A stretch of DNA of 64,000 bases from Clostridia bacterium (GTDB taxonomy: Bacteria; Bacillota; Clostridia; RUG12999): contig JAAWTG010000001.1 in assembly GCA_022801925.1 (NCBI GenBank), forward strand, positions 62,001 to 126,000, in the 5' to 3' direction. The translations under genes were made by a program, and so were the position numbers. Shown piece after piece: positions 31,181-32,309 of the stretch. Each line of letters opens with the position of its first letter. Position 1 is the stretch's first letter. The notes under the pieces are model-generated. The model saw only the letters and a program-made list of their open reading frames with translations. It was not told the DNA's origin and did not search any database.

Positions 31181-31222
31181 AAAACGAATCTGTGAGACAG
31201 ACGAAACACAGATTCGTTTTTT
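31181..31222. terminator. Convergent terminator between lonB and the XRE gene
   Basis: AAAACGAATCTGTG (31181-31194) pairs perfectly with CACAGATTCGTTTT (31207-31220), followed by TT and preceded by an A run. Confidence 0.85.
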
Positions 31223-31293
31223 CATATATCCTAATAAAGTCTTGATTTTTTGCTCGTCTTGAAAGGCGACGTATGATAAAAAGAAGATGTTTG

Positions 31294-31623
31294 TCAAAGT
31301 GCGATATAATTTTCAATAATGAAATCAATACTTTTTTGCTGTTTTGCGGACAAGTGACGGAAATTTTCAATATGACGCAGTTCCGTATCATTTAAATCAG
31401 TGGGGGTTATTTTTTCGAGTTTACGCTCTATATTGGTATAGCCGACAATGAAATCAATAGATGTGTTGAAATAATCAGCCAGTCTCTTTAATGTATTGAT
31501 ATCCGGTTCTACATTATGATTTTCATATTTGTTAATGGATTGTTGGCTTACGCCAACAATTTCTCCAAGTTTTTGCTGACTGATATTATTTTTTTCTCGG
31601 AGCAGTTTTATATTCTCCAGCAT
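31294..31623 (-). CDS. XRE-family HTH transcriptional regulator
   Basis: DNA-binding repressor-type protein of 109 residues from ATG 31623 (CAGGAGG 10 bases upstream). The helix-turn-helix, about residues 5-58, reads REKNNISQQKLGEIVGVSQQSINKYE followed by LKRLADYFNTSIDFIVGYT. The C-terminal 45 residues are charged and helical, probably for dimerisation. It is divergent from a superinfection-immunity-like gene, with a TTGTTG-A-CAACAA palindrome between them, so autoregulation and control of that gene are likely. Confidence 0.85.
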   Translation of the reverse strand: MLENIKLLREKNNISQQKLGEIVGVSQQSINKYENHNVEPDINTLKRLADYFNTSIDFIVGYTNIERKLEKITPTDLNDTELRHIENFRHLSAKQQKSIDFIIENYIAL

Positions 31624-31710
31624 AAGCGGTTCGCCTCCTGTTTTGGATTGCATTCTCTGTTACTTCTATTCTAACAACTTTTGAGAAATCTATAAAAAAC
31701 TTATTAATTG

Positions 31711-31742
31711 TTGTTGACAACAACTGTTTGTTGTGATACAAT
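31711..31742. promoter_or_regulatory. Divergent promoter with palindromic operator
   Basis: Plus strand: TTGACA (31714-31719), 17-base spacer, TACAAT (31737-31742), extended -10 TGA. The palindrome TTGTTG-A-CAACAA (31711-31723) covers its -35. On the minus strand TTGTCA (31720-31715) can serve as -35 for the XRE gene. A further TTGTTG copy lies in the spacer. Confidence 0.65.
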
Positions 31743-31821
31743 GTTTGTAATAAACGAACAAATCATAAGTGAAATGATTTGCATTGAAAATATAATAAAT
31801 GATACGGGGAGGGGCATTACT

Positions 31822-32208
31822 GTGGAAATGGGTGCAGCGGAGGCAGCGAGTTCAGTGAGTGTGAGTCCAGTGAGTCGAATGATGGTACCGATGGTAGTTT
31901 TATTATTAATTGCAATAGTAGTATTACTCTATTTATTGCCAACAATTATTGCTGTAAAGAAAAAACATTTGCAGAAAGTTCCGATAATATTAATAAATAT
32001 ATTTTTAGGGTGGTCGTTCATCGGCTGGGTGGTTGCTCTTGTATGGGCGTTTACGCAAAGTCAGCCTAATATTTTGCATATACATGAAGAAAATAAAAAT
32101 ATAGACTTAAGTGAGAAAATACGGTCACTTGAAGAATTGAGAAAAGATGGATTTATTACGGACGAGGAATTTGAAATGAAAAAAAGTGAATTATTAAAAA
32201 GCTACTAA
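31822..32208 (+). CDS. Superinfection-immunity-like membrane protein with SHOCT domain
   Basis: Protein of 128 residues from GTG 31822, chosen because GGGGAGGGG lies 7 bases upstream; ATG 31828 is the alternative and the longer frame from 31708 would overlap the promoter. Two membrane helices (about 20-40 and 55-75) carry the Imm_superinfect pattern YLLPTIIAVKKKH and LGWSFIGWVVALVWAF. The C-terminus is a SHOCT motif (LEELRKDGFITDEEFEMKKSELL). T4 Imm, the family founder, blocks phage DNA entry, but most bacterial members have unknown function. Possibly a phage-derived pair with the XRE gene. Confidence 0.75.
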   Translation: MEMGAAEAASSVSVSPVSRMMVPMVVLLLIAIVVLLYLLPTIIAVKKKHLQKVPIILINIFLGWSFIGWVVALVWAFTQSQPNILHIHEENKNIDLSEKIRSLEELRKDGFITDEEFEMKKSELLKSY

Positions 32209-32259
32209 ATTTTTAATGGGGAAGTCTTAAAAATACGGTCTCTTTCTGTATATAATAAA

Positions 32260-32292
32260 AAGTGCCGTTCTCTTTCAAAGAGAACGGCACTT
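32260..32292. terminator. Convergent terminator
   Basis: Sixteen-base perfect arms, 32260-32275 and 32277-32292 (AAGTGCCGTTCTCTTT), separated by a single base; in RNA the loop will open to 3-5 bases. Confidence 0.8.
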
Positions 32293-32309
32293 CTGCGTAT
32301 CGTACAATA

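Follow-up and report, generated by a model that had tools for sequence, protein, structure and literature searches.

A predicted XRE-controlled switch for an Imm-SHOCT membrane protein in a chromosomal cassette of Clostridia

Introduction

Why does a small membrane protein of the Imm_superinfect family stand opposite an XRE repressor gene on a bacterial chromosome, and what would that repressor control? The question is raised by a locus in a window of 64,000 nucleotides of DNA (G000:C42:62001-126000), the whole stretch analysed here, which comes from a gut Clostridia genome (G000) of 2.95 Mb in 96 contigs. The name "superinfection immunity" was given to this family for other members, and the original prediction read the locus as a lysogeny-type control unit that lies outside a phage. 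We compared it with two genomes of the same genus, a sister genome (G001) and a third species (G002), and with relatives of both proteins in other bacterial genomes and in viral records.

Results

Identity of the two divergent genes

The XRE protein is encoded where it had been predicted and matches Pfam HTH_3 with 58.7 bits against a cut-off of 23. Its longer frame starts at 31653 and encodes 119 aa; since an AGGAGG at 31639-31634 precedes the ATG at 31623, the protein is probably 109 aa long, and the alignments of its six best relatives outside the genus begin at residues 6-12 of the 119-aa frame. The protein is identical in the sister genome, where the gene carries 1 silent change. By sequence, the nearest solved structure is CylR2 (E 2.8e-08). 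XRE relatives are present in 124 phage records, and one viral contig contains a relative at 52%. A PADLOC search of the XRE protein returned generic HTH matches and no more. With HTH_3 found by profile search at 88 places in G000, several of them as two per frame, a lone XRE neighbour would prove little.

The divergent gene encodes a protein with the predicted Imm_superinfect signature (PF14373, 63.6 bits against a cut-off of 27.9) and SHOCT tail (PF09851, residues 98-125, 32.1 bits against a cut-off of 27), and it matches PHROG 1039, "immunity to superinfection", with 89.1 bits. In an AlphaFold2 model (mean pLDDT 72.5, pTM 0.29), long helices at residues 16-46 and 52-78 correspond, with moderate confidence, to the two transmembrane helices of the Imm_superinfect domain, and a two-helix tail follows at residues 90-108 and 114-126. 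No solved structure matching Imm by sequence was found, nor did Imm match any toxin-antitoxin family. In PADLOC, XRE and Imm together fit the models of no one system, and Imm gave only weak membrane matches (best E 6e-4). A 166-aa frame from the TTG at 31708, open in both G000 and G001, was rejected because it would begin within the promoter, and because the Shine-Dalgarno sequence precedes the GTG at 31822. The coordinates of all features are collected in Table 1.

Imm_superinfect is present in 1 copy in G000, in 2 of the 9 genomes of its own family, and in 6 of the 398 genomes of a phylum sample; relatives of Imm occur in 592 phage records. A SHOCT-bearing Imm gene in one phage record (L029:4844-5182) adjoins tail-like genes, as judged by eye, and an Imm gene in a prophage-like plasmid record (L296:2311-2898) adjoins annotated tail genes. 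The Imm leader in the window contains an inverted repeat, caaatcat-N7-atgatttg (31759-31781), that is kept in the sister genome, making a leader hairpin possible; a 16-bp inverted repeat is found in the Imm leader of L197 as well.

Table 1. Positions of genes and predicted control elements at the XRE-Imm locus (window coordinates)
Feature	Position	Strand	Basis and remarks
Terminator-like hairpin, left cassette border	31182..31222	+	Read from sequence; 3' of Lon-type gene; counterpart in G002
XRE repressor gene (HTH_3, Cro/CI type)	31294..31623	-	HTH_3 profile; probable start ATG 31623, 109 aa
Shine-Dalgarno AGGAGG of XRE gene	31634..31639 (31639-31634)	-	Read from sequence
XRE promoter	31668..31696	-	Promoter scan; TTTATA 31696-31691, TAGAAT 31673-31668, TG before -10
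Second half-site ACAAC/GTTGT (O2)	31674..31678		Abuts XRE -10; probable autorepression site, inferred
Palindrome GTTGTTG-A-CAACAAC of the original prediction	31710..31724		Read from sequence; one mismatch in sister genome
Imm promoter	31714..31742	+	Promoter scan; TTGACA-17-TACAAT, TG before -10; 11/12 consensus
Main operator O1 (predicted)	31717..31734		ACAAC-N8-GTTGT; inner ACAAC-N5-GTTGT 31720-31734; in Imm promoter spacer
Shine-Dalgarno GGGGAGGGG of Imm gene	31806..31814	+	Read from sequence
Imm_superinfect + SHOCT protein gene	31822..32208	+	Pfam, PHROG, AlphaFold2 model; GTG start, 128 aa
Terminator hairpin, right cassette border	32258..32294		From the scan that gave the promoters; between Imm and convergent AI-2E transporter gene; counterpart in G002

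Setting of the gene pair and its divergence from the sister genome

The surrounding genes encode a Lon-type protease, an AI-2E transporter, a phosphoglycerate mutase, a glycosyltransferase, amino-acid biosynthesis functions, an SLH protein, and CBM9 and MFS proteins. All 10 flanking proteins tested are of housekeeping or envelope types and none is encoded by a phage gene, which supports the earlier description of a compact XRE switch that lies outside a phage and would control an Imm-type membrane protein. In the third species, the flanks align at 88% identity, the counterpart of 31226-32278 is missing at the same junction, and that genome has its own versions of both hairpins, separated by under 100 bp. 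Neither repeats nor mobility genes were seen at the borders. As judged from these alignments, XRE and Imm are a discrete cassette between two terminators in housekeeping surroundings, and its presence or absence among the three congeners compared may reflect gain or loss alike.

Six changes separate the Imm genes of G000 and G001, 5 replacement and 1 silent, and all lie within codons 1-43, whereas the 3' part of the Lon gene and the transporter gene have 2 replacement and ∼30 silent changes (Fisher p 2e-4 for the contrast). Ten differences fall within the 233 bases of 31713-31945; five of the six Imm changes alter the protein, and the rest of the gene has none. The promoter region has 4 changes in 168 bases. 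It is possible that the first Imm helix evolves fast or that a short tract has recombined, and we treat this as a lead, given how few the changes are.

Palindrome and predicted operator

The palindrome named in the original prediction, TTGTTGACAACAA at 31711-31723, is real, extends to 15 bp, and covers the -35 element of the Imm promoter as proposed, but not that of the XRE promoter, which lies 14 bp away. Its arm length was reached in 13 of 2000 shuffles of the promoter window and in 89 of 2000 shuffles of the whole intergenic region; the bare palindrome is just mildly unusual and is weak alone. There are 2 exact copies in G000, the other of which (L003) lies within a coding frame, as does a one-mismatch copy (L005). 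In the sister genome one arm reads GTTATTG, and ACAACA-N6-TGTTGT is perfect in both genomes. The palindrome was rejected as the main operator because of this one-base break, because relatives mostly have GTTATTGACAACAAC, and because ACAAC-N5-GTTGT persists. The element conserved across species, and hence the better candidate for the control site, is this ACAAC-N5-GTTGT at 31720-31734.

The predicted operator O1, ACAAC-N8-GTTGT, is the sole match in the window, where 0.06 would be expected. The exact sequence TTGACAACAACN5GTTGT occurs nowhere else in G000, and TTGACAACAAC-N5-GTTGT has a single exact occurrence in each of G000 and G001. A conserved TTGTCA overlaps the Imm promoter region on the opposite strand, and no XRE-side -10 that would partner it at 16-18 bp is conserved among relatives. 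Elsewhere in G000, four regions (C49:7838-8295, C19:514-970, C55:206-664, and C55:54522-55513; L290-L293) encode XRE proteins with two HTH domains in tandem. At three of these regions, short proteins of a similar type (ending LLKLLG) are encoded divergently or nearby, and the promoter sites, of the form TTGACA-N3-AC-N5-GTTRT, have the same layout.

Operator and cargo genes of XRE relatives

A search of 391 Clostridia genomes with the XRE protein found a match at E 1e-10 in 150 of them; 30 loci were taken and joined by one viral contig, and these 31 loci were examined for an exact ACAAC-N8-GTTGT within 350 bp upstream of the XRE gene. The counts leave out the 2 loci of the same genus, and the recognition helix was readable at 28 of the 29 others (all but L257). 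Eight of these 28 relatives share the helix [ST]QQ[SA][IV]NKYENH, and the site is found upstream of 7 of the 8, compared with 1 of the 20 with another helix (Fisher p 5e-5); the exceptions are L246, which has the helix without the site, and L255, which has the site but another helix. At every locus with the site (the same genus, the seven, and L255), it lies in the 17-base spacer of the divergent TTGACA-17-TAnnnT promoter in the same register. L241 has a second operator copy upstream, and L238 departs from the pattern in the inner left arm (ACACC). This is the arrangement of a predicted promoter-occluding XRE protein, with a conserved operator in the promoter it controls.

Most XRE relatives have an extended -10 of the (A)GTTGTTA type in the XRE promoter. 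At L244, whose helix differs, the geometry is kept as ACAAG-N5-CTTGT, and CTTGT also stands at the XRE -10, where most have GTTGT; by alignment, this is one example of a co-varying site pair. The recurrence of GTTGTTA at the XRE -10 and the presence of CTTGT at both places in L244 argue that O2 is a probable autorepression site. As a natural variant in both helix and operator, L244:1498-2334 is useful for helix-operator matching.

Imm lies near the XRE gene at 2 of the 31 loci, both from the same genus, and the genes divergent from same-helix relatives outside the genus are never Imm. They encode a CHAP + fn3 secreted protein (L247), a GH26-type protein (L248), a collagen-like membrane protein (L238) and, as judged by eye, a signal-peptide protein that matches no Pfam family (L241) and a membrane-anchored protein (L243); non-envelope or unclassified cargo is found at L242 and L245 (unclassified genes) and at L244, the relative with another helix (a response regulator). 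Because this cargo is so varied, XRE and its operator would make up a reusable unit that is often, not always, beside an envelope gene. Because the close XRE relatives found in other genera all lack an adjoining Imm gene, the XRE and Imm families of the window, as far as comparison goes, are not long-standing partners.

Pairing of Imm with other repressors

Among the best 80 of 302 Imm loci in genomes, a divergent XRE gene lies ≤300 bp upstream of Imm at 4 (L032, which is the sister genome, L067, L076, and L082). All four are among the 7 loci titled Clostridia, Clostridiales, or Oscillospiraceae; the count for the others is 0 of 73. Among the best 80 of 243 viral Imm loci, none has a divergent XRE gene within 300 bp, which counts against descent of the pair from a phage. 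In the order of G145, Imm is found at 14 places in 12 of 394 genomes; a divergent XRE gene is present at 6 of the 14, and these 6 are among the 7 best-scoring places. Overall, the XRE-Imm pair was found in 10 genomes (L076 and G729, whose frames are identical, were counted once). The pair thus recurs in other Clostridia, and the possibility that it is conserved nowhere is ruled out.

The repressors of these other pairs, where alignable, are 30-43% identical to the window XRE protein, and their promoters have other palindromes: TAGCGGA-N3-TCCGCTA in the spacer (L067, L082) and AAGATAA-N4-TTATCTT at the -35 (L076). A perfect palindrome over the Imm promoter was found at none of L018, L194, L195, L197, and L193, and the promoter of the one unpaired Imm gene of similar size used as a control (L196) is free of palindromes. 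That Imm is repeatedly found opposite unlike repressors suggests a need to keep it repressed until required.

A patatin-like gene next to Imm

A patatin-like protein is encoded directly 3' of Imm in 7 of the 10 pair genomes (G145, G746, G799, G833, G982, L067, and L082); another gene takes this position at L076/G729. By eye, the patatin motifs (GGxAKGAY, the serine motif SAASxG or SASSIG, and DGA) look intact, and all 4 of the proteins tested match Pfam Patatin, with 55.8-66.1 bits. A search of 394 genomes gave 29 patatin places, and the top five by score (38-42% identity) are exactly those linked to Imm. Imm is present at none of the other 24, and a divergent XRE gene at one (L221). The window locus contains no patatin gene and no trace of one. 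PADLOC gave no match for the patatin at E 0.01 in 3 of 3 tested, no defence genes were seen by eye among the neighbours of the patatin loci, and viral scans with a patatin and with a short Oscillospirales Imm protein found no relatives. The XRE-Imm-patatin set recurs in Oscillospirales-type genomes (L067:3579-5415, L082:3579-5411, L018:979-2489, L194, L195, L197, and L193), and the gene order in L067 and L082 is Imm-patatin-Imm.

Discussion

The conserved sites and their match to the recognition helix give good support to autorepressed control of a membrane protein gene. We assign a probability of roughly 0.6 to the reading of this locus as a switch in which the repressor regulates both its own gene and that of a small membrane protein, the two forming a cassette between two terminators. 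An XRE dimer would sit on O1 and hold Imm off, while O2 would damp the XRE gene itself. A signal would then free the promoter, probably through a ligand, a protein partner, or titration, as the XRE protein lacks the length for a LexA-type domain and the only peptidase gene beside it is the Lon-type one. The two-helix Imm protein would build up in the membrane, its SHOCT tail presumably cytosolic, and might act like phage T4 Imm by hindering the entry of foreign DNA or protect the membrane otherwise. The regulatory half of this proposal is its strong part; the exclusion function comes from family resemblance only and is put forward tentatively, at less than even odds. An antiphage role of the cassette is plausible; the envelope-stress module that the original prediction also named stays conjectural. 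A counterpoint to the switch is that the stretch most changed from the sister genome includes the operator and promoter themselves.

The varied genes opposite the XRE relatives invite a broader view in which XRE and its operator control any adjoining divergent gene, often one for the envelope, and phages are irrelevant. Secreted and membrane types are among the products at L241, L247, L248, L238, and L243, and one report (PMC3709268) describes CylR2, the nearest solved structure, as working at divergent promoters together with CylR1, a membrane protein; the non-envelope or unclassified genes at L242, L245, and L244 do not fit, and the pairing of Imm with unlike XRE proteins elsewhere speaks for a need to repress Imm itself. 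We consider this view possible though doubtful. Somewhat more doubtful is the idea that the window holds a cut-down form of an XRE-Imm-patatin system of Clostridia, a module for suicide, defence, or membrane remodelling; in the window, SHOCT would have been kept or gained and patatin lost or never present. The downstream position of patatin in most pair genomes, its Pfam scores, and the exclusive link of Imm to the five best of the 29 patatin places argue for it, but the low identity of the alignable XRE proteins and their different promoters do not support common descent, PADLOC recognised none of the patatins tested, their neighbours look non-defensive by eye, and the window lacks any patatin trace.

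Two further explanations carry less weight than these. Unrepressed Imm could be a small membrane toxin with XRE as its transcriptional antidote, as the strong promoter, tight-looking repression, small hydrophobic product, and patchy presence of the cassette among congeners would allow; such an arrangement is unlikely, as Imm matches no toxin-antitoxin family and the 73 loci outside Clostridia (among the best 80 of 302), all without a divergent XRE gene, indicate that Imm is tolerable without such control. That the locus is the remnant of a prophage immunity region is very improbable: the many phage records with relatives of either protein and the 52% XRE relative in a viral contig are set against the lack of phage genes among the 10 flanking proteins, the clean presence or absence between terminators with no repeats seen, the identity of the XRE protein in the sister genome, and the absence of the pair from the 80 viral Imm loci (best 80 of 243).

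Returning to the preferred reading of an autoregulated switch, its widest extension is that Clostridia hold an undescribed inducible membrane system of XRE and Imm, with or without patatin, that was put together repeatedly from different repressors, each lineage with promoter sequences of its own. Such a system would be a chromosomal superinfection-exclusion or suicide device, silent until a phage or membrane insult lifts the repressor; the window Imm-SHOCT protein, with its fast-evolving first helix, would be the stand-alone form. We hold this extension to be speculative and on balance doubtful. The literature searched, with subscription journals and preprints outside its scope, yielded no description of an XRE-Imm or Imm-patatin module. 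If the switch is as proposed, a family with a phage-derived name is seen as part of a chromosomal module under regulation, whose operator is precisely placed and open to testing. One XRE and operator design would serve a variety of divergent genes, and the recurrent XRE-Imm-patatin set is a candidate for phage defence.

Among known systems, the XRE protein has the RstR family of repressors (NF041951) as its best NCBIfam match (residues 13-117), yet its 62.8 bits fall below the curated cut-off of 80. Patatin defence systems include CBASS, and the Oscillospirales relatives share with these a patatin beside HTH control; unlike CBASS, the loci read have no cyclase, as judged by eye, and no PADLOC patatin match, and the window has no patatin. 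The proposed likeness to a lysogeny-type unit holds in part. The same 29-nt promoter/operator pattern is found in one viral contig (L289), between two divergent frames that by eye encode HTH proteins, as in the CI/Cro switch of a temperate phage, but the divergent gene of the window encodes the Imm-SHOCT membrane protein and not a Cro-type HTH protein, and the flanks tested are without phage genes. With T4 Imm and PF14373 (PHROG 1039) the window Imm protein shares the two-helix domain and the conserved P40, N59, FLGW..GW, and W75; Imm proteins with SHOCT are common at viral loci and in other bacteria. T4 Imm, which blocks genome passage across the plasma membrane according to a review (PMC9311878), is encoded by a phage gene, whereas the window Imm gene is chromosomal and predicted to be under an XRE repressor. 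Like the window locus, the CylR1/CylR2 system of Enterococcus has a small XRE protein at divergent promoters that is tied to a membrane protein (PMC3709268); CylR1, with three predicted helices, and CylR2 are encoded together, opposite the controlled operon, whereas in the window the membrane protein would itself be the product of the repressed gene.
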